NCBI GenBank assembly: GCA_947174015.1
Contig: CAMWHJ010000002.1
Span: 26,206 to 90,205, forward strand
Direction of reading: 5' to 3'
DNA from: an uncultured Lachnospiraceae bacterium
GTDB taxonomy: Bacteria > Bacillota > Clostridia > Lachnospirales > Lachnospiraceae
Length of the DNA: 64,000 nt
The position numbers and the translations under genes are program-made. Shown here in pieces: positions 29,621-64,000 of this stretch (positions are counted from its first letter, which is position 1; each line of letters begins with the position of its first letter). The notes beneath the pieces were generated by a model that was not told the origin of the DNA, ran no database searches, and was given only the letters and a program-made list of their open reading frames with translations.

Positions 29621-29649
29621 GTAACAGTTCAGGTATCTGAACTGCTATG
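29621..29649. repeat. short copy (B) of the GTAAC palindrome family
   Basis: gtaacagttcag-gtat-ctgaactgctatg. Confidence 0.6.
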
Positions 29650-29688: not shown

Positions 29689-32600
29689 TTATTGTAAAAG
29701 CGTTGCAATTCCATTTTGATTCACATAGTTGGTCTGTGCCAGCATAGACTGTGAAGCCTGCACAAGAATTTGACTTCTGGCGAAATTCATGACCTCCTCT
29801 GCCATATTGGTGTCCCGAATCTTGCTCTCCGCACTCTGGAGATTCTCTACATTATTGTCTGTGAGAAGAATGGCACTCTCAAAACGATTAAATTTTGCAC
29901 CACAGATACTTCGCCTGGAATTAATGTAATTTAAGGCATGGTCTAAATGTTTTAAACTAAACTCTGCATAGGTGTGTTTTGTTACCAAAATATTATCCAG
30001 CCGCAGCAAAGCTGTGCTGAGAGAAATCCTGTGCATTTCCACCTCCTGCCCACTGTTTGCCCCTACCTGAATACGCATGGGATCGGTATATCCCTGAGAT
30101 GTCATATGAAATAGAACAGTATCTATGGCATTTCCCCGAACCCTGCTGATATCATGTATTCCAAAGGAAGGATATTCTAACTTGAGCCTGTCATCTTCCA
30201 ACAAAACCTCCAGTTTTGGAATTCCTCCTTCCTCATCTCCGGCTTCAAATAAACTCTTAAGTAAATCCACAAATTCCTCCTTAGTATAGCTTCCCTCCGG
30301 AATGGTAAAATCATAAGAAATACCATCCAAGTCAAATCCAAATTGATTTTTTTCCGGGATAATGGTAACACCATTAGATATATCAATAGTTCCGGTGATA
30401 CTGGCCGGGGTTGGGATTCCACTTGTTTTATAGAATACGGTATAAGCAGCGTTTCCACTCACTCCGTCTAAAATATATTCTCCCTCATTGGGGGTCACAT
30501 TTGCATTGGCAGTTTTTAGCGTAAAATTCAAGGCATTGGCATCATTGGCACCTACCACTCCGGTATTGATACCGCCGATTTTTGCCTGAATTACAAAATC
30601 CGTGATGCCATTGTCACTGAGCTGTTTGTTAAAATCATCCTGCAATAGCTCTGCAATTTCATCTCCGGTATAAGTTCCTGCCGGAAGTGTACTGCTTAAT
30701 GTCAGCATCTGAGGATTCCCATCTTTATCCGGATAAGTAAAATCTAGGGTAAGCACATCATTGACACCTGTTTTGATCTTAGCATCACTATTTCGCAGGT
30801 CAGCACGTCCAACCACATAGGCTTCCTGGAATTTTGATGTACCCTTAATGTTGCTGGGAGTATAAGATGTTGTAGTTCTATCAATTCTACACATCACGTT
30901 CCTGTAAAATCCTCCGCTGCAACTGTTGAAAGAATGTCCGCTTCCTTTGCCATTGCTGGCAATAGTGATTCCTCCATTCTCAACAGATACTGTAACTAAA
31001 CCGGAAGCTATGTTGTCTATTTTTGCCTGAAGTGCTGAAACCAATTCAGCGGAAGAATAGCTTCTGTTATCCAGTTTAATATCAAAGGTCTGAGTGGCAG
31101 CACTCCCCGCATCGTTAATATAATTCAAGGTGAATTTAAAATCATTATTCGTATTATCTATGGTAATGCCACTGCTTACATTTGTTTTTCCGTTTACCTT
31201 TGCCGGCTGTAAGACAGATGATGATGGGTATGCTGGATAGGTATACGGTGTCATCAATGCCATGGATGCAGAAGAACTGCTTGAATTAAAGGAAAGATAG
31301 GCATCTGACCCTTGCTTTGTGGTAGTGAAAGTCACACGATTTGAACTATCCATGGAAACGGTTACCCCTGCATTTTTATCAGCAAGCAACTCATTAATTT
31401 TACTTATCAACGAACCAGAGGAATAATTTCCATCGGGAATGGTAACACTAACACTACTATTGTTTACATACAGTTGCAATTTATTATTCGTGGAATTTAT
31501 TGTAACGCTGGAAGCACTCAGCGGATAGTCCAGCGTAAGAACAGCAGGCGATTTCGTATACTGTGTACTTCCCTGCAGCTTATCATAGGAACCATAGGCT
31601 GACTTGTTACAGTAATAATAGCTGATACCCTCTCCCAGCAGAAGATCATTATAGGCAGTTCCACCACAAGAAACAGAAGTAATACTGCCATCTGGACTGG
31701 TAAACTGCAGTTTATTGCCGGAAAAAGAAGCATTTACTTTTCCTTTTAAGTTACTGTTATTTTCTATTTTGTCATTAATATCCTTCAATAATGCTGCCGG
31801 ATTGTCATAACTGGAAGATAAATCAATGGTCTGCGGCATCCCTCCATTAAGCGTAATGGTCAGATTAGGATTACTGCTTTTCAATTCTATTTTCCCTGAT
31901 AAGTTTTTTGCTCCCGTATATGTCACATTTGAACCAGATTGAAAGGTAGCGTTTTCTGTTTTTGATACACTGGTATCACAAAATAAAGCTTTGTAGGCTG
32001 CCTGTGAAACTGTGGAACTATTGTCAAATACAATTATGCTGTCACCACCCGGCTCCTGGGATTCCAACTGTAAATATTCGTAGTATGTATAAGGGAAAGT
32101 AGAATTACCCATATATGTATTGTTAGTAGTAAAGCGAAACCGAGAACCATTTCCGCCTAAAGAAGTATTTAGTGCATTTTTTAATTCTGTCATTGTATAT
32201 TCTTTCGCAGGAATAGATAATTCGATATAGTCCGCATCATCCTCTAATTTAAAGCGAAGCTTATCGTTGACACCTGATGTAATGGTTATTTTGTCACAAT
32301 AACTGCTATGATAGTAAGCCTGTCCCTTCACAACTCCCGGGGTACTGGTAATCTTTCCGTAGTGGGCATTATCATAGAAGATAGAATCATAGGCAATACC
32401 TGTATCAATCTGAAACATATTTCCCTTTAAACCGGTAATAATGTCAGTGCCAGCAGAAAGTACAATGCTGTTTCCCTCATATACCTTTGCCTCCAGTCCG
32501 CTGTCCTCTCCCAGCAGTTCATTGATTTTTTCAATGGTGTCCTGCAGACTGTACTCCCCTTCTGGGATCTTAAGAGAATAATTTTTGACTGCCCCCGTTT

Positions 32601-33453
32601 CCATGGACTGGACTTGGAAAGAAAGCTCATCATTTTTTCCTGCTACAATTTGCAGTGGATAATCTGCATAAAACTTTGTGGTACCGATCAATTCTCCGTT
32701 TGACTGTCCCCCATGGTAATCATAAAAGAGATTTGCCAGGGCACCTCCTACCGACAGCAGCCCGTCACAGCCTTCCAGCTGAAGTGTACAGGCCCCGGGA
32801 CCATGATATCCTATGGTGAAATAAGAGTTTTCCGGTGCAGTTCCCTCCATGAGCTCCTCCAGCGTCTCGATAAGCTCATAGGTGGTGTAATTCCCTTCTG
32901 GTACCGTAATTTCCACTTCATTTGGATCTAATGACTTATCCAAATAAATCTTCAGTGTGTTCTCCGGAGTCACCAGATAGTGGTTTGTATCATTATCCCA
33001 TATTTTCGTACCCTCAAAGGTAGAATAAACCGGCTCATGATCCGTATAAATATCCATGCCATTATATTCCGTGTGCTGGGATATTCTGCCAATCTCCGTC
33101 TGAAGTTGATCAATTTCCAACTGGATAAGTTCTTTGTCCTCCTCTGTATTGGTATCATTTAATGCCTGAACCGTAAGTTCACGCATACGTTGTACCAGTG
33201 CTGTAACTTCACCTAAAGAACCATCCGCTGTTTTTAAATACCCGCAGGCTTCCCCCATATTCATGGAAGCACGGTTTAACCCCCGGATTTGTCCCCGCAT
33301 TTTTTCGGAAATAGCTAAATTAGCCGCATCATCTCCTGCCCTGTTAATCTTATAACCGCTGGACAATTTTTCTGTTGATTTTATACTTTTGCCTGTGGCA
33401 TTTTTATATACATTCTGCCCATAGGCAGTAAGAATATTATGTTGAATAATCAT
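29689..33453 (-). CDS. giant flagellin (1254 aa) with about 8 divergent central repeats
   Basis: Flagellin N-term MIIQHNILTAYGQNVYKNATGKSIKSTEKLSSGYKINRAGDDAANLAISEKMRGQIRGLNRAS and C-term SKIRDTNMAEEVMNFARSQILVQASQSMLAQTNYVNQNGIATLLQ; repeated [ND]xL.F.....xxxIPxGxYxxxELxxxIN units. Confidence 0.93.
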   Translation of the reverse strand: MIIQHNILTAYGQNVYKNATGKSIKSTEKLSSGYKINRAGDDAANLAISEKMRGQIRGLNRASMNMGEACGYLKTADGSLGEVTALVQRMRELTVQALNDTNTEEDKELIQLEIDQLQTEIGRISQHTEYNGMDIYTDHEPVYSTFEGTKIWDNDTNHYLVTPENTLKIYLDKSLDPNEVEITVPEGNYTTYELIETLEELMEGTAPENSYFTIGYHGPGACTLQLEGCDGLLSVGGALANLFYDYHGGQSNGELIGTTKFYADYPLQIVAGKNDELSFQVQSMETGAVKNYSLKIPEGEYSLQDTIEKINELLGEDSGLEAKVYEGNSIVLSAGTDIITGLKGNMFQIDTGIAYDSIFYDNAHYGKITSTPGVVKGQAYYHSSYCDKITITSGVNDKLRFKLEDDADYIELSIPAKEYTMTELKNALNTSLGGNGSRFRFTTNNTYMGNSTFPYTYYEYLQLESQEPGGDSIIVFDNSSTVSQAAYKALFCDTSVSKTENATFQSGSNVTYTGAKNLSGKIELKSSNPNLTITLNGGMPQTIDLSSSYDNPAALLKDINDKIENNSNLKGKVNASFSGNKLQFTSPDGSITSVSCGGTAYNDLLLGEGISYYYCNKSAYGSYDKLQGSTQYTKSPAVLTLDYPLSASSVTINSTNNKLQLYVNNSSVSVTIPDGNYSSGSLISKINELLADKNAGVTVSMDSSNRVTFTTTKQGSDAYLSFNSSSSSASMALMTPYTYPAYPSSSVLQPAKVNGKTNVSSGITIDNTNNDFKFTLNYINDAGSAATQTFDIKLDNRSYSSAELVSALQAKIDNIASGLVTVSVENGGITIASNGKGSGHSFNSCSGGFYRNVMCRIDRTTTSYTPSNIKGTSKFQEAYVVGRADLRNSDAKIKTGVNDVLTLDFTYPDKDGNPQMLTLSSTLPAGTYTGDEIAELLQDDFNKQLSDNGITDFVIQAKIGGINTGVVGANDANALNFTLKTANANVTPNEGEYILDGVSGNAAYTVFYKTSGIPTPASITGTIDISNGVTIIPEKNQFGFDLDGISYDFTIPEGSYTKEEFVDLLKSLFEAGDEEGGIPKLEVLLEDDRLKLEYPSFGIHDISRVRGNAIDTVLFHMTSQGYTDPMRIQVGANSGQEVEMHRISLSTALLRLDNILVTKHTYAEFSLKHLDHALNYINSRRSICGAKFNRFESAILLTDNNVENLQSAESKIRDTNMAEEVMNFARSQILVQASQSMLAQTNYVNQNGIATLLQ

Positions 33454-33482
33454 AATCTATTCTCCTTTCATTATCAAGCCAG

Positions 33483-35153
33483 CTATTGCAGGAGACTGAG
33501 TACTCCTTGGTTTATATTATTAGCCTGAACCAGCATGGATTGTGCTGATTGACATAAAATATTGTTTTTTGCATAATTTGTCATCAAATCTGCCATATCG
33601 GTATCACGAATTTTAGATTCGCTTTCTGTCAAATTCTCACTATAATTATCCAGTCGTGCAATGGTATGCTCCAGTCTGTTCTGCACTGCCCCTAAATAAG
33701 AGCGATAGTTGGAAACTGTCCGGATGGCATTGTCAAAACGTGAGATTTCCACACTGGCTGCATCATGGGTAGACACATCAATATCATCCAATCCAATCAG
33801 AACTTTTCTTCTCATATCTCCAATACAGAAATCCATTTCCTGACCAGAGTTTGCCCCCACCTGCAGTTTGATCCGTTCACCACTGGAATTTGGTTCATCC
33901 CAATGAACTGTCCAAACCTTGCCGCCTAACAGCAGCTTTTCCACTGAGTGCTCGATAGGCAGCCCTCCACCGAGGTTGGGGATCACATTTTTCTCCGGCA
34001 TATCCCAGTCACCCAGACAATCCTCCAAACCATCTTGCAGAGTAATATGACATGCTGCTACAAATGTTCCCGGCTCATTTGCAACCATATCAGTTATCAT
34101 AGTGGCAAACTCGTCTCCGTTTTCCACACCATAATATTTTTTCAAAAGCTCATCAAAGGTTAAACCCGATCCCATATCCTGCATAAAATCTTTAAAGGTA
34201 CCTGCTATTGTATTATATGCCATATAGCTGACTGCATAATAACCCATGGAATACGCATTGGTGCCACTTACTGAATTGGAAAAGCCCGACATAGCTGCTG
34301 CCACTTTGTCCACCGTTTCCGTCCAACGATTATTTCCATGTACTGCCTCTGCAAGACCCTCCGTAAACCACATGGGTATATCTTCAATGGCAGGAGAACA
34401 ATTATGCATCATAATGGCATGGGTTATCTCATGTGTCATAACTCGATCCACCAGCATTCCTCCTGCATAGGGTCCGCTGCTGCTATCAAAGTCTGACATA
34501 TCATACTGTTCGATAAAATCCGTATTCACATACAATGAAAAGCGGTTGGAGCCGAAACCGCTTCCCATAGCTGCCACTGTACCAGCACCCATGGAACTAA
34601 ACTTCACACTCATTATAATATTTTCGTTTGGACCAATGCCCAGACAGTCATTAATTCTGGTAAGCGCATCCTGCAGCCAGGTACTCTTTAAACGTTCCTG
34701 AAATTTTGTCTTTAAATCATTGGCATGAAGAGTATAGCTGCCGTCCAACAGCTTCATGGTGTTATATTCTGTCCCATTTGCAATGCGATCCAGCTCCTCT
34801 GCCAACTGATCCAACTCCTGCTTAATACACTCTCTATCCTCTCTGGTATTGGTATCATTTGCTGCCTGTACGGACAATTCACGCATTCTATGGAGAATAT
34901 TTTGGGATTCCTGCATTGCCCCCTCAGCAGTCTGCACCAGTGAGATCCCCTCCTGGGCATTTTCCGAAGCACGGTTAAGTCCCCGAATCTGTGCACGCAT
35001 TTTTTCGGAGATCGCCAATCCTGATGCATCATCTGAAGCACGGTTAATGCGGTAACCACTGGATAATTTCTCTGTATCCTTTGCCCTTTTCTTATTATTT
35101 ATCTTACATTGCAGATTAGCATTCTGTGCCGCAATCACATGTTGTATAATCAT
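33483..35153 (-). CDS. flagellin with embedded HExxH metallopeptidase domain (flagellinolysin type)
   Basis: Flagellin D0/D1 ends flank VMTHEITHAIMMHNCSPAIEDIPMWFTEGLAEAVHG (HEITH plus downstream E). Confidence 0.93.
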   Translation of the reverse strand: MIIQHVIAAQNANLQCKINNKKRAKDTEKLSSGYRINRASDDASGLAISEKMRAQIRGLNRASENAQEGISLVQTAEGAMQESQNILHRMRELSVQAANDTNTREDRECIKQELDQLAEELDRIANGTEYNTMKLLDGSYTLHANDLKTKFQERLKSTWLQDALTRINDCLGIGPNENIIMSVKFSSMGAGTVAAMGSGFGSNRFSLYVNTDFIEQYDMSDFDSSSGPYAGGMLVDRVMTHEITHAIMMHNCSPAIEDIPMWFTEGLAEAVHGNNRWTETVDKVAAAMSGFSNSVSGTNAYSMGYYAVSYMAYNTIAGTFKDFMQDMGSGLTFDELLKKYYGVENGDEFATMITDMVANEPGTFVAACHITLQDGLEDCLGDWDMPEKNVIPNLGGGLPIEHSVEKLLLGGKVWTVHWDEPNSSGERIKLQVGANSGQEMDFCIGDMRRKVLIGLDDIDVSTHDAASVEISRFDNAIRTVSNYRSYLGAVQNRLEHTIARLDNYSENLTESESKIRDTDMADLMTNYAKNNILCQSAQSMLVQANNINQGVLSLLQ

Positions 35154-35214
35154 AAATTTTTCCCTTCGCTTTCCAAAAAACAATCCCATCTTTCTGTTCA
35201 ATTTATATTCTTTC

Positions 35215-35425
35215 GTAACTATTCAGTACCTTCATAGTTACGAGCAAAGAACCATGCAAAATTGCTTTTCGGGTATTGCACCCATAAAAATTGCTACGCA
35301 ATGGGTGCAAGCAGGCAATCAAACTGATTCACAGTTTGATTACTTTAGGCAATGGTTCTTTGCCTGTTATATCCACTTTTTCTTACGGTCTGTGCAGTAA
35401 ATGCACAGACCTGCTGAACAGTTAC
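35215..35425. repeat. multi-hairpin intergenic element (copy D, 211 bp) in the predicted flagellinolysin leader
   Basis: Outer ends GTAACTATTCAG...CTGAACAGTTAC; nested stems 35244-35255/35352-35363, 35276-35285/35301-35310, 35317-35326/35332-35341, 35387-35396/35402-35411. Confidence 0.8.
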
Positions 35426-35473
35426 ATTCTTTCATTTTTTTGCTGAACAGTCACCGTTATTTTATAATACTAT

Positions 35474-35500
35474 ATATCGGCTGATTCTTTCATTTTCTTA
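35474..35500 (-). promoter_or_regulatory. candidate sigma-28 (SigD/FliA) promoter
   Basis: minus strand TAAGAAAA (35500-35493)-11 nt-GCCGATAT (35481-35474); cf. TAAAGTTT-N11-GCCGATAA. Confidence 0.7.
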
Positions 35501-35611
35501 AGGCAGAAAACAGATCATTTATTTTTGGAGGCTATTTGTCCCAATCCGTACTTTGTTTTGGAAGGCTCCATGCTGTCTCTTTAAAATATCTCTCTTTAAA
35601 ATGCAAAATGT

Positions 35612-35652
35612 TCAAGTCTATGGAAACATTTCCACCGTAGACTTGAACACTC
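35612..35652 (-). terminator. hairpin downstream of nfnB-like gene
   Basis: gttcaagtctatgg...ccgtagacttgaac, 14-bp stem with one G-T. Confidence 0.7.
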
Positions 35653-35695
35653 TTAATATGTTTCTTTGCCTGTTATATCCACTACATGATTTCTG

Positions 35696-37081
35696 CTATT
35701 TGTTCATCAAATATTCATGAATTCCTGCCGCTGCTGCCTTACCGGCACCCATGGCAAGAATAACTGTGGCTGCTCCGGTAACTGCATCTCCACCAGCAAA
35801 CACACCCGGCTTAGTGGTAGCTCCGTTTTCTTCTTCTGCCACAATACACTGCCATTTATTGATATCTAATCCCTTGGTGGTGGAAGAAATCAATGGATTT
35901 GGCGCCGTACCCAGTGCCATGATAACGGTGTCTAACTCCAATTCAAAGTCAGATCCTTCCACTACCTGCGGTCTTCTTCTTCCTGATTCATCCGGTTCTC
36001 CCAATTCCATTTTCACACAGCGCATGCCTTTCACCCAGCCATTTTCATCCACCAGAATTTCTGTGGGGTTGGTTAATAAGTCAAAGATAACACCCTCTTC
36101 TTTGGCATGATGTACCTCTTCCACTCTGGCCGGCAATTCTTCTTCACTTCTGCGGTATACAATATGAGTCTCTGCACCCAGACGAAGTGCTGTTCTGGCA
36201 GCATCCATAGCCACATTACCACCGCCCACAACGGCAACCTTTTTGCCTTTGGAAACCGGAGTATCATATTCATCCATAAATGCTTTCATCAGATTATTTC
36301 TAGTTAAGAACTCATTGGCAGAGAATACACCGTTGGCATTTTCACCCGGAATTCCCATAAACTTCGGAAGACCGGCACCGGAACCGATAAATACTGCCTC
36401 AAAGCCCTCTTCCTCCATCAATTCATCAATGGTGATGGACTTACCGATAATAACGTTAGTTTCAATCTTAACTCCCAATGCCTTAACATTGTCAATTTCC
36501 GCTTTCACCACCTCTTCCTTTGGCAGACGAAATTCCGGAATACCATATACTAAAACACCGCCGGCTTCATGCAATGCCTCAAAAATAGTTACATCATAAC
36601 CAAGCTTCGCCAAGTCCCCGGCACAGGTAAGACCAGCAGGACCAGAACCAATTACTGCCACTTTTTTATTGTTCTTCTCCTTTGGCATTTCAGGCTTTAC
36701 TCCTGCCTCTCTTGCATAATCAGCTACAAAACGCTCTAATTTACCAATAGATACCGGCTCTCCCTTGATGCCACGAATACATTTTCCCTCACACTGGCTC
36801 TCCTGTGGGCATACACGTCCACACACTGCTGGAAGTGCAGAGGATTCTCCAATAATTTTAAAGGCTTCTTCCATATTTCCCTCTTTTACCTGCTCTACAA
36901 AGCCCGGAATATTAATGGAAACAGGACATCCCTTAATACACTGTGCATTCTTACAGTTGATACAGCGAGCTGCCTCCTCCATAGCTTCTTCTTTGGTATA
37001 TCCTAAGCAAACCTCTTCAAAATTTTTATTCCGAATATCAGCCGGTTGTTCGCTGATGGGTACTCTTTTCATTACATCCAT
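35696..37081 (-). CDS. NADPH-dependent glutamate synthase small-subunit-like / NfnB
   Basis: 461 aa; CINCKNAQCIKGCPVSINIPGFV, GSGPAGLTCAGDLAKLGYDVTIFEA, VVGGGNVAMDAARTALRLGA; paired with NfnA-like gene. Confidence 0.92.
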   Translation of the reverse strand: MDVMKRVPISEQPADIRNKNFEEVCLGYTKEEAMEEAARCINCKNAQCIKGCPVSINIPGFVEQVKEGNMEEAFKIIGESSALPAVCGRVCPQESQCEGKCIRGIKGEPVSIGKLERFVADYAREAGVKPEMPKEKNNKKVAVIGSGPAGLTCAGDLAKLGYDVTIFEALHEAGGVLVYGIPEFRLPKEEVVKAEIDNVKALGVKIETNVIIGKSITIDELMEEEGFEAVFIGSGAGLPKFMGIPGENANGVFSANEFLTRNNLMKAFMDEYDTPVSKGKKVAVVGGGNVAMDAARTALRLGAETHIVYRRSEEELPARVEEVHHAKEEGVIFDLLTNPTEILVDENGWVKGMRCVKMELGEPDESGRRRPQVVEGSDFELELDTVIMALGTAPNPLISSTTKGLDINKWQCIVAEEENGATTKPGVFAGGDAVTGAATVILAMGAGKAAAAGIHEYLMNK

Positions 37082-37974
37082 TATTCGTCACCTCCACAAT
37101 GTCCGCAGCCACCATGATGGGTTTCACCCTCTTGTAATTTTAAGATGGCTCTGCCCTCTTGAGTTTTATACATCTGCTGACGCTTCATCGCCTCGTCAAA
37201 ATTTACCAAATGCCCATCAAATTCCGGACCATCCACACAGGCAAACTTCACTTCATTTCCCACTGTTACGCGGCAGGCACCGCACATACCGGTACCATCC
37301 ACCATAATGGGATTTAAGCTGACCACTGTTGGAATATTCAATTCCTTTGTTAAAATTGTAACAAACTTCATCATAATCATTGGTCCAATGGCAATACATA
37401 CATCATATGTCTTACCCTCATTTTCCACTAAATTCTTAACCACCTCAGTGACTAAGCCTTTAAAACCAAAGCTTCCGTCATCAGTTGCCACATACAGATT
37501 GCCTGCAACCTCTTCCATTTCCTTTTGCAAGATCAGCATATCCTTTGTCTTGGCACCCACAATTACATCTGCTGCTACCCCCTGCTCATGAAGCCATTTT
37601 ACCTGTGGATAAACTGGTGCAGTACCCACACCCCCGGCAACAAACAGGATTTTCTTATTCTTTAAGCTGTCAACAGATTCCTCAACCAATTCCGATGCAC
37701 GTCCCAATGGACCTACAAAATCCATGAAAAAATCTCCAACCTCTAATTCTGCCATTCTCTCAGTGGATGCACCCACAATCTGGAATACAATGGTAACTTC
37801 TCCAGTCTCTCTGTTATAATCACAGATAGTCAGTGGAATTCTTTCTCCCTTTTCATCCATCTTTACAATTACAAACTGTCCCGGCTGGCAAGAGCGTGCC
37901 ACTCTGGGAGCCTCAACAACCATAAGGAAAATCTTATCCGCAAGCTTTTCCTTTACATTAATCTTATACATCAT
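37081..37974 (-). CDS. sulfide/dihydroorotate dehydrogenase-like FAD/NAD-binding protein (NfnA)
   Basis: RSCQPGQFVIVKMDEKGERIPLTICDY; VDGTGMCGACRVTVGNEVKFACVDGPEFDGHLVNF. Confidence 0.92.
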   Translation of the reverse strand: MMYKINVKEKLADKIFLMVVEAPRVARSCQPGQFVIVKMDEKGERIPLTICDYNRETGEVTIVFQIVGASTERMAELEVGDFFMDFVGPLGRASELVEESVDSLKNKKILFVAGGVGTAPVYPQVKWLHEQGVAADVIVGAKTKDMLILQKEMEEVAGNLYVATDDGSFGFKGLVTEVVKNLVENEGKTYDVCIAIGPMIMMKFVTILTKELNIPTVVSLNPIMVDGTGMCGACRVTVGNEVKFACVDGPEFDGHLVNFDEAMKRQQMYKTQEGRAILKLQEGETHHGGCGHCGGDE

Positions 37975-38082
37975 TATCCTCCTACTTTGTGATCCATTTC
38001 CTAATAACCACTATCATAAGCTATTAGCAGACATTTTTCAACAGAAAAATTTATTTTGCATAAAAGTCCCAGTTTAATACGG

Positions 38083-38110
38083 GTAACAGCTCAGATACCT
38101 GAACTATTAC
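38083..38110. repeat. short copy (C) of the GTAAC palindrome family overlapping a stop codon
   Basis: gtaacagctcag-atac-ctgaactattac. Confidence 0.6.
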
Positions 38111-39525
38111 TAGTAAGGTGCTTCTAAGCGGTAGATGCCTTCGGAATTTGCATAGACCTTGGTAATTTCACCGATATTTTCCGCATTCACCCCATATTTA
38201 AAATCAAAATCCTGTACTGTGCCATCAGAAAGCGTCAACCGCTTGGTTACCAGCAGATATGTGACACCATTAATCATCGTTGCCGCATTGCAGTTTAAAC
38301 TATAAGTTCCGTCTATCCCAATGGCATGCCCCTCCAAATCATAAGTCTCCCCAATATTTAACATCAGATTTCTCACTGCGGTAATTGCCTCCGGTGCCTC
38401 ATAGGTGGTATTCAGGTTTAAGGTATATTCCTTCTTTGTTACCTCACTGATTTTGCCATTTGACCCATAAACAATACAGGTAATCACAGAATTGCCCAGC
38501 CGCATGGGAATCGGCTTTTTGTATTTTAGAGATTTTTTTGTGGGGATGGAACCATCCAAAGTATAATAGGCAGTATTGTCCACCGCCACCTCAATCATAA
38601 TATCCGTAGGTTCTGTATACTCTCCGCTGTCAGGAAATATAGAGGCTGCGGCTGGAATCTCCAACTGTATGTCATACTTTTTCTTCAGTTCACTGCTGAC
38701 CATTCCCTTGGTATTTACACCGATGGCACGAAGGGTGTATTCTCCTTCCTCCAAAGTAATCGGCTTCCGATACACGTTGCTGTTTAAAGTAGGTTCGCTG
38801 CCATCCAGTGTATAATAAATGGTTTCTTTTGTTTCTGTCTTTAGTACCAAGGTTAAACTGTCCTCATATTTTCCTTCCTCTACATTTACTTTCGGTTCTG
38901 AGAGATTGTAGGCAGCAAATGCCATTTCAATATCTTTATTGTCGCAATTTTGTAGCAATTTTGTAATCTTGCTGTAATTTTCCGTCTCTTCATAAATATC
39001 AATCAATTTGCGATATGCATCAATATTTGCCGGTGACCGCTGGATGGCAGTAAGCATACATTCTTCTGCCAACTGATATTTTTTCTGCTGCTTAAAAATA
39101 TCTGTCAGAGCAATACAGATATCAAAGCTGCTTTTATCCAACTCCAATACCTTTTCATAAAACTCCATAGCCTCTTCTGTGTTATCCTTTTTTTGGGCAT
39201 ACTCTACTGCCTTTGTAAATTGGTATTCATAAGAATTCATATGTTTTATGTGAGTGCCCAGCAAAATCCCCAAAGCCAGAAGGCAGATCCCGGCAATACC
39301 AACGATTCCCACCGCTTTTTTCTTTTCAATATGAATTTTGGTCTTCTCCTCCTGCTCGCTGGCACGATAATTGCCAAATTCCTCATGAACAAGCTTTTCT
39401 AATGTCTTGGCAATTCGCTCCTCCAACTCAGGGTTGTAGTCAGGTACTATCTGAATTCCATGACCGCATTTTTCGCAATAAAGCTTTCCCTCTTCTATCT
39501 CAGTGCCGCATTTTTCACACTGCAT
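38110..39525 (-). CDS. zinc-ribbon, single-TM, TPR protein with two chitobiase/hexosaminidase C-terminal (CHB_HEX_C) repeats
   Basis: CEKCGTEIEEGKLYCEKCGHG; TPR-like; two YYTLDGSxPT...YRKPI units. Confidence 0.8.
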   Translation of the reverse strand: MQCEKCGTEIEEGKLYCEKCGHGIQIVPDYNPELEERIAKTLEKLVHEEFGNYRASEQEEKTKIHIEKKKAVGIVGIAGICLLALGILLGTHIKHMNSYEYQFTKAVEYAQKKDNTEEAMEFYEKVLELDKSSFDICIALTDIFKQQKKYQLAEECMLTAIQRSPANIDAYRKLIDIYEETENYSKITKLLQNCDNKDIEMAFAAYNLSEPKVNVEEGKYEDSLTLVLKTETKETIYYTLDGSEPTLNSNVYRKPITLEEGEYTLRAIGVNTKGMVSSELKKKYDIQLEIPAAASIFPDSGEYTEPTDIMIEVAVDNTAYYTLDGSIPTKKSLKYKKPIPMRLGNSVITCIVYGSNGKISEVTKKEYTLNLNTTYEAPEAITAVRNLMLNIGETYDLEGHAIGIDGTYSLNCNAATMINGVTYLLVTKRLTLSDGTVQDFDFKYGVNAENIGEITKVYANSEGIYRLEAPY

Positions 39526-39587
39526 GGCTCTTCCCCTTTTCCTTATATGTAACCAATCTGCCGCTGATTGATTGCCTGCCTAAGTGA

Positions 39588-40424
39588 CTACTCCATAGAA
39601 GATACACAATTTTTCATCAGCATGGCAATAGTCATCGGACCTACACCACCAGGTACTGGTGTAATTGCCTGCACATGAGGTTCCACATCAGCATAATCCA
39701 CATCACCGCAGAGTTTATTATTCTGATCTCTGTGAATTCCCACATCAATCACAACAGCCCCCTCCTTTACATAAGAGCTGTCAACCATTTTCGGTTTCCC
39801 CACAGCTACCACCAAAATATCAGCCCGCTTTGTAATTTCTTTTATATTTGCTGTTTTAGAGTGTGTAATGGTCACTGTGCCATTTTCCCGCAGCAACAGC
39901 ATTGCCATGGGTTTTCCTACAATATTGCTTCTGCCCATTACCACACACTCTTTTCCCTCAATTTCAATGCCGGAACGCTCTAATAACTCAATGACTCCTG
40001 CTGGTGTGCAGGACACAAAGCCCTTTTGTCCAATACTTAAAGCCCCCACACTCTGCGGATGGAAACCATCCACATCCTTTTCAGGCATAATGGTCTTAAT
40101 CACTTTGTCTTCGTCTATGTGCTTTGGCAAAGGAAGCTGTACTAAAATACCATTTACCTTTTCGTCCCGATTCAGTTCTTCAATTTTTCCCAGCAGCTCT
40201 GCCTCCGTGACATTTGGGGGAAACTGCACAGACAGAGAATCAATTCCAATGTACTCACAAGCCTTCTTTTTGTTGTTCACATACACGCTGGATGCCGGAT
40301 CCTCTCCTACTTGAATTACTGCCAGACAAGCCGCCTTTCCCTGTGCCTTAAAAACTGCTACCTTTTCCTTTAATTCATCTTTAATTTCCTTGGAAATTTT
40401 CTTTCCATCTATAATATATGCCAT
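39588..40424 (-). CDS. folD: methylenetetrahydrofolate dehydrogenase/cyclohydrolase
   Basis: YVNNKKKACEYIGID, GILVQLPLPKHID, GRSNIVGKPMAMLLL, TPVPGGVGPMTIAMLM. Confidence 0.97.
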   Translation of the reverse strand: MAYIIDGKKISKEIKDELKEKVAVFKAQGKAACLAVIQVGEDPASSVYVNNKKKACEYIGIDSLSVQFPPNVTEAELLGKIEELNRDEKVNGILVQLPLPKHIDEDKVIKTIMPEKDVDGFHPQSVGALSIGQKGFVSCTPAGVIELLERSGIEIEGKECVVMGRSNIVGKPMAMLLLRENGTVTITHSKTANIKEITKRADILVVAVGKPKMVDSSYVKEGAVVIDVGIHRDQNNKLCGDVDYADVEPHVQAITPVPGGVGPMTIAMLMKNCVSSME

Positions 40425-40478
40425 ATGTTTTCCTTTCTTTAGCTAAAGCTGACAGCATAAACTGCCAGCTTCCATCTA

Positions 40479-42149
40479 TTAAAATAGACCTGTGATCACT
40501 CCATTATCATCCACATCAATATTGTTGGCAGCCGGTACCTTCGGAAGTCCCGGCATAGTCATAATAGACCCTGTGATCACTACCACAAAACCTGCTCCGG
40601 CATTTACATATACTTCACGCACATTCAAAGTAAAGCCTTCCGGTCTGCCAAGCTTTGTCTGATCGTCCGACAGGGAATACTGTGTCTTTGCCATACATAC
40701 TGGAAGCGTGCCAAATCCTAAATCTTCAATGGTCTTTAACATCTTAGCTGCTGCCGGTGCAAAGCTTACATCCCTGGCACCATAAATCTCTGTGGCGATG
40801 GTCTCCACCTTTTCCTTTAAGGACATGGAATCCTCATATAAAGGCTGAAAACTGCCGGACTTATTTTCCAAAGTGTCTATCACCTTTTGGGCAAGCTCTA
40901 TTCCTCCGTCGCCGCCATGCTCCCAAACCTGAGCCAAAGCAAATTCACAGCCCCGCTCCTCACAGAACTGCTTAATGTAATCGGTTTCTGCCGGTGTATC
41001 TGTAATAAAAGAATTTAAAGTTACCACAACTGGTACACCATATTTCTGCAGATTTTCAATGTGCTTTTCTAAGTTTACAATACCTGCCTTTAGTGCATCC
41101 AAATTTTCACTATTTAACTCTGCCTTTGGAACACCACCGTTATACTTTAAGGCACGAACCGTTGCCACTAAAACAACTGCGTCCGGTTTTAAGCCTGCCT
41201 TACGGCATTTAATATCAAAAAACTTCTCTGCCCCTAAATCAGCACCAAAACCAGCCTCTGTCACCACAATATCTGCTAACTTTAAAGCTGTTTTGGTGGC
41301 TCTTACACTGTTGCAGCCATGGGCAATATTCGCAAATGGACCACCATGAACCAATGCAGGTGTATGCTCTAAGGTCTGAATTACATTGGGCTTTAAAGCA
41401 TCCTTCAGCAGGGCCGCCATGGCACCCACTGCATTTAAATCCCTGGCTGTTACCGGCTTGCCTTCTCTGGTATAAGCCACAATAATACTGCCAAGACGTT
41501 TCTTTAAGTCCTTCATATCGTCAGCAAGGCAGAGAATAGCCATGATTTCCGAGGCAACGGTAATCACAAAATGATCATCTCTTACCACACCGTCCATCTT
41601 ACCGCCAAGACCCACTACAATATTTCGCAGCACTCTGTCATTCATGTCAAGACATCTCTTCCACACAATCTGTCTGGTATCAATTCCCAGTTCATTGCCC
41701 TGCTGAATATGATTGTCAAGCATGGCAGCCAACAGATTATTGGCAGAAGTAATGGCATGAAAATCCCCAGTGAAATGCAGGTTTAAGTCCTCCATAGGCA
41801 CCACCTGTGCATAGCCGCCGCCGGCGGCACCGCCCTTGATGCCAAAGCAGGGACCTAAGGATGGCTCCCGAAGAGCAATCACCGTAGGCTTATTTAATTT
41901 ATTCAGTGCCTGACCCAAACCTACGGTAATGGTGGTCTTACCTTCTCCTGCCGGTGTTGGATTAATAGCAGTGACCAGCACAAGCTTTCCATCTTTCTTG
42001 TCTTTTACTCTATTCCATAACTCATCGGATAATTTCCCCTTATACTTTCCATATAATTCCAAATCATCCGCCTCAATGCCAAAAGGCTTAACAACTTCTG
42101 TGATTGGCAGCATTTCCGCTTCCTGTGCAATCTGAATATCTGTTTTCAT
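40479..42149 (-). CDS. fhs: formate-tetrahydrofolate ligase
   Basis: [55 protein letters not shown]. Confidence 0.98.
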
Positions 42150-56814: not shown

Positions 56815-56980
56815 GTAACTGTTCAGCCTACACCATTCGCAAAACGCACCTATGGTGCTTCTTTGCTGCTACGCAGCTTTTTTAGCTCATAGACAGGCAT
56901 TCCGCTCATAGCCATGCTTTTATTGTGCAAATCATGCAGACATGATTCGCACACAAAGCAGGCTATGGCTGAACTGTTAC
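56815..56980. repeat. multi-hairpin intergenic element (copy E, 166 bp) between convergent genes
   Basis: Ends GTAACTGTTCAGCC...GGCTGAACTGTTAC; inner stems gcacc/ggtgc, gctgc-tac-gcagc, tgtgcaaatcatg/catgattcgcaca. Confidence 0.75.
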
Positions 56981-63951: not shown

Positions 63952-64000
63952 GTAACTATTCAGTACCTTCATAGTTACGAGCAAAGAACCATGCAAAATT
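63952..64000. repeat. left end of multi-hairpin element (copy F), cut by window end
   Basis: 49 bp identical to 35215-35263. Confidence 0.85.

Follow-up and report, generated by a model that had tools for sequence, protein, structure and literature searches.

The 211 bp between positions 35215 and 35425 of the window (the whole 64,000 nucleotide stretch of uncultured Lachnospiraceae DNA analysed here) are one copy of a new family within an established class, the MITEs, as judged against the literature and Rfam, and this non-coding transposon derivative very probably owes its movement to an IS66-type transposase (single-ORF, TnpC-like) acting in trans. The element is short and has no gene of its own, and it combines terminal inverted repeats (TIRs) and 8 bp target duplications with some 180 dispersed copies and one clear empty site in a relative, which bears out the MITE half of the original prediction, a non-autonomous mobile palindrome (MITE- or REP-like) or a branched structured RNA. 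Its unusual features are its ~180 copies, hairpins whose pairing is selected, a composite long form and a biased orientation.

The window copy lies on the + strand, antisense to both flanking genes, and its parts are as follows.

35207..35214, no strand: left copy of the target site duplication, 8 bp, ATTCTTTC, same letters as 35426-35433
35215..35425, + strand: MITE in its 211 bp long form; the left TIR hairpin comes first (canonical orientation)
35215..35226, + strand: left terminal inverted repeat, GTAACTATTCAG
35215..35241, + strand: left hairpin, 27 bp, the TIR followed by its own tip in inverted copy
35244..35363, + strand: central hairpin, with 12 bp stem arms 35244-35255 / 35352-35363
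35266..35347, + strand: 82 bp insert in place of CTAC of the 133 bp form, from comparison of long and short forms
35276-35285/35301-35310 and 35317-35326/35332-35341, + strand: the two insert hairpins, 10 bp each
35387..35411, + strand: right subterminal hairpin, loop GTAAA, with compensatory changes across genera
35414..35425, + strand: right terminal inverted repeat, CTGAACAGTTAC, with 159 exact genome matches (control 1)
35426..35433, no strand: right copy of the target site duplication, 8 bp, ATTCTTTC
35441..35454, + strand: relic of another right end, TGCTGAACAGTCAC
35662..35683, + strand: relic fragment that matches what follows the central stem, TTCTTTGCCTGTTATATCCACT

All four long stems of the original prediction (one of 12 bp and three of 10 bp, the last being 35387-35396/35402-35411) were recovered, as was its outer inverted pair, in which GTAACTATTCAG and CTGAACAGTTAC are complementary at 11 of 12 positions. 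The hairpin at the left end, given there as 7 bp, is present and extends to 8 bp inside the element (35215-35222/35234-35241). Unremarked at that stage were the 8 bp direct repeat ATTCTTTC, the high copy number, and the status of this copy as the long form of a 133 bp unit. Folding of 35215-35425, proposed as a check, gave energies far below those of shuffled sequences on both strands (-80.8 kcal/mol, z -8.1 on the + strand; -85.4 kcal/mol, z -9.2 on the - strand), and no shuffle was as low on either.

Positions 35215-35425 contain no ORF as long as 60 aa, neither an intrinsic terminator nor a sigma-70 promoter was found inside the element, and the ORFs of 30000-41000 include no transposase, as had been predicted. 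An existing Rfam family, which would already have explained the element, was not found: neither gathering nor permissive thresholds yielded a match in the window, the best on the element (E 2.7) falling well below threshold. A plasmid collection contained no match to the element, and a phage collection held partial matches in two unannotated contigs only. The neighbouring genes, both on the minus strand and named from reading their proteins, encode a flagellin-like protein (33483-35201) and a glutamate-synthase-type small subunit (35696-37081). In the former, flagellin-type N- and C-terminal parts flank a central domain with HEITH, by eye a possible zinc metalloprotease motif.

The left 29 bp of the element match 184 sites in the 3.2-Mb genome at up to 3 mismatches, compared with 0 for a reversed-pattern control, contradicting a single-copy sequence. 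The standard unit is 133 bp long and has three hairpins, in the order left hairpin (TIR plus inverted tip copy), central hairpin, spacer, right hairpin and right TIR. In the 211 bp long form the CTAC of the central loop is swapped for 82 bp with two extra hairpins, a net gain of 78 bp. At least 19 full-length long copies occur in the genome (95-100% identity, each 210-212 bp), and the hairpin core of the insert matches at 26 sites, corresponding to ~26 long copies. Because the insert junctions are identical in all long copies while each copy has its own duplication, we infer that the composite was amplified as a unit. Insert-like sequences without the MITE are found in congener G004 (L048, L047), in one case between rpoA and rplQ, and for this reason the insert may itself be a second small, independent two-hairpin repeat. 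The MITE is likely the main repeat of this genome. Many copies lie at contig ends in this assembly, and since so many contigs stop within a copy, the family probably fragments draft assemblies. The left part of a further copy occupies 63952-64000, where the contig stops within it.

Dispersal was by transposition with duplication of 8 bp of target. Among 33 copies of the 133 bp unit chosen by their ends alone, the duplication is perfect in 25 and 7/8 in 7, so that 32 of 33 unselected standard copies reach at least 7/8, versus ~3% in shuffled flanks. A wider catalogue of 80 copies contains 60 perfect duplications and 20 at 7/8, although this is a sample filtered at 7/8 or better, and its proportion is not independent evidence. 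With few exceptions, long copies likewise have 8 identical bases on both sides. Comparison of filled and empty sites, suggested with the original prediction, was informative in the ptb-buk intergenic region, which holds a 133 bp copy here; in the sister species G002 it is empty and the target occurs once, and the joined flanks gave junction-spanning matches in all four congeners. The corresponding gap in G001 apparently contains another element of ~29 bp with its own 8 bp duplication, AAATAAGA. A REP-like or IS200/IS605-type palindrome would also be small, palindromic, intergenic and multi-copy. REP and IS200/IS605-type palindromes are not known to duplicate their targets or to have long-range terminal inverted repeats, and the presence of both features here contradicts that origin and makes it vanishingly improbable; the REP-like part of the prediction thus finds no support, since the copies duplicate their targets.

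Attribution of movement to an IS66-type transposase follows from the ends. The MITE ends, GTAACWGTTCAG, match those of single-ORF IS66-type elements in related genera, which makes such a mover likely, the stretch shared by MITE and IS66-type elements being only 12-19 bp. One such element, in the same genus (L051, 1154-2968), is 1815 bp long, has GTAACAGTTCAGCC at both ends and encodes a 505 aa protein (Pfam IS66, E 2.4e-21); a second, in another genus (L064, 1463-3286), is 1824 bp long with ends GTAWCTGTTCAGAACCCCC and a 487 aa protein above the Pfam cut-off; a third (L060) has GTTACTGTTCAG at both ends. The left end of a MITE in genus G008 (L153) and the L064 end agree over ~25 bp. Typical IS66 elements of this bacterial family end in GTAAGCGTCAAATAA, unlike the MITE. 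Target duplications of 8 bp are typical of IS66 (PMC11946415) and were seen at two typical IS66 copies of the family (L193, L209); at L051 and L064 no 8 bp duplication was found. The assembled genome, a draft estimated as 97.8% complete, contains no IS66 transposase (PF03050) above the family cut-off, and the partner is therefore inferred from relatives.

Elements of the IS256 family also make duplications, of 8-9 bp, and a gene of IS256 type, divided between two frames, is present in this genome (L054), so a MITE moved by this or some other transposase family producing 8 bp duplications has to be weighed. L054 has no GTAACTGTTCAG-like end within 2 mismatches, whereas L051, L064 and L060 all have GTAACTGTTCAG-like ends on both sides; we reject IS256 as the mover for want of matching ends at L054, and regard any such alternative family as very unlikely. 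Under the preferred IS66-type mechanism, the element would have retained only the ends needed for movement, with transposase supplied in trans and each insertion into AT-rich intergenic DNA duplicating 8 bp. The 133 bp three-hairpin unit would have been amplified, a second two-hairpin sequence in its central loop would have given the 211 bp composite, and this would have been amplified in turn. Selection would maintain the subterminal hairpin pairing, which may aid spread (end recognition) or be tolerated inside operon transcripts.

The hairpins recur well beyond this genome. A scan of the kind that had been recommended, using a covariance model for the right side of the element, detected relatives of it in 14 of the 100 genomes sampled from the bacterial family, one genus each, several of these relatives having perfect 8 bp duplications. 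When 14 representatives were folded with short-range pairing, nearly all formed three hairpins of differing sequence, the central hairpin included; in the G087 representative the right side folds otherwise. The three-hairpin arrangement is conserved in ~10 genera. Across genera, 7 of the 10 pairs of the right hairpin have changed on both sides and 94.3% of cells are paired, compared with at most 42% when the partner is slid by 1-3 columns. Given these compensatory changes, the base-pairing of the right hairpin is, on the evidence of the aligned sequences, under selection. As for the predicted branched structured RNA, the conserved pairing stands, and the data do not tell RNA action from DNA action; in the stems, GU changes are roughly as frequent as AC changes, pointing to no RNA strand.

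Copies between co-directional genes are predominantly one-sided, with the canonical strand antisense to both genes in 46 and sense in 10 (p about 1e-6), and the window copy agrees with this majority. By form, the antisense:sense counts are 17:1 (long), 23:8 (standard) and 6:1 (mini). The bias likely results from selection against one orientation inside operons. A terminator or promoter was considered as its cause, and the element contains none. Congener G001 shows no bias (8:8), and we reject the bias as a general rule on that count. The one-sided orientation of MITE copies between co-directional genes raises a testable question.

Selected pairing and biased orientation bear on whether the element has been domesticated as an RNA that folds in tandem-gene transcripts and controls mRNA processing or stability, its mobile origin being secondary. 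The compensatory changes in the right hairpin would fit such a role, as would the 46:10 orientation between tandem genes, the low variation of the right stem in this genome (0.45% per base, vs 2.8% in the adjoining spacer) and the precedent of ERIC elements, which affect mRNA in an orientation-dependent manner (PMC2229807). Against this, fresh perfect duplications at scattered sites indicate that the element spread recently and is not in fixed use as a regulator, G001 has no orientation bias, terminators and promoters are not in excess, and the parity of GU and AC stem changes names no RNA strand; we consider domestication quite unlikely. Also unlikely is a reading in which the three-hairpin fold is itself what selection keeps, as a mobile structure of RNA (or single-strand DNA), maintained by compensatory change in about a dozen genera and acting, when antisense, inside operon transcripts. 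If true, one IS66-dependent MITE family would have supplied many operons with a ready-made mRNA element.

Seven solitary 27 bp copies of the left hairpin, with a GTAACTATTC end, have 8/8 or 7/8 duplications, and both their tips match the TIR. They could be self-mobile by means of the left hairpin's two TIRs, outer and inner, and be the smallest transposons of the system, a possibility that we hold to be doubtful rather than remote. Against it, deletion between two AGTTAC repeats (positions 22 and 128) of the 133 bp unit gives exactly the 27 bp product, and AGTTAC and TTGCCT, both 6 bp, are the unit's longest direct repeats. Deletion of 20 bp between TTGCCT repeats, similarly, predicts a 113 bp form, which exists as L085. 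Because both repeat-predicted products occur, we prefer in-place deletion to a 27 bp transposon. Their formation resembles the nearly precise excision of Tn10, and these remnants with intact target duplications constitute a natural record of near-precise excision.

Other small elements were observed in the window and in relatives. A second, different MITE-like element of 166 bp (56815-56980) has 14 bp inverted ends, GTAACTGTTCAGCC / GGCTGAACTGTTAC, and no clear 8 bp duplication; another genus (L050) has a 165 bp element whose ends are similar and whose duplication is 8/8. Two 28 bp palindromes (29621-29648 and 38083-38110) each consist of two inverted ends 4 bp apart with 6/8 flanking repeats, and are probably what is left of a different element that had the same ends; an intact relative (L071:2914-2941) has an 8/8 duplication. 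At 1544-1585 a 42 bp remnant still has its two inverted ends, flanked by a 7/8 repeat.

A literature search found no IS66 MITE described in these bacteria. The new family, probably IS66-dependent to judge by its sequence, provides a clear example, in this bacterial family, of MITEs that are linked to IS66 and whose secondary structure is selected. The Correia/NEMIS elements of Neisseria (PMC2229807) are similar in being MITEs with TIRs, target duplications, strong stem-loops and high copy number, and in occurring in two sizes that differ by an internal segment (107/155 bp, compared with 133/211 bp here). They differ in their ends, duplication length and likely transposase, and the 78 bp net insert here is a two-hairpin sequence. 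The ERIC/RU-1 elements of enterobacteria (PMC2229807) are likewise imperfect intergenic palindromes of ~130 bp whose orientation alters their effects on mRNA, as orientation is biased in the MITE; no sequence relation was seen, and the MITE has GTAACWGTTCAG ends and 8 bp duplications, suggesting IS66. MITEAba12 of Acinetobacter (PMC6382973) is comparable in size (~113 bp), in TIRs matched to a single-ORF IS, in a recent burst and in AT-rich targets, but it makes 9 bp duplications, has at most 22 copies per genome and has no reported orientation preference, whereas the MITE described here has 8 bp duplications, ~180 copies and an orientation bias. The IS66 family itself shares with the MITE ends beginning GTAA and 8 bp duplications (PMC11946415); the MITE differs in being without a transposase, and its ends match the single-ORF subgroup, GTAACWGTTCAG, rather than GTAAGCG.
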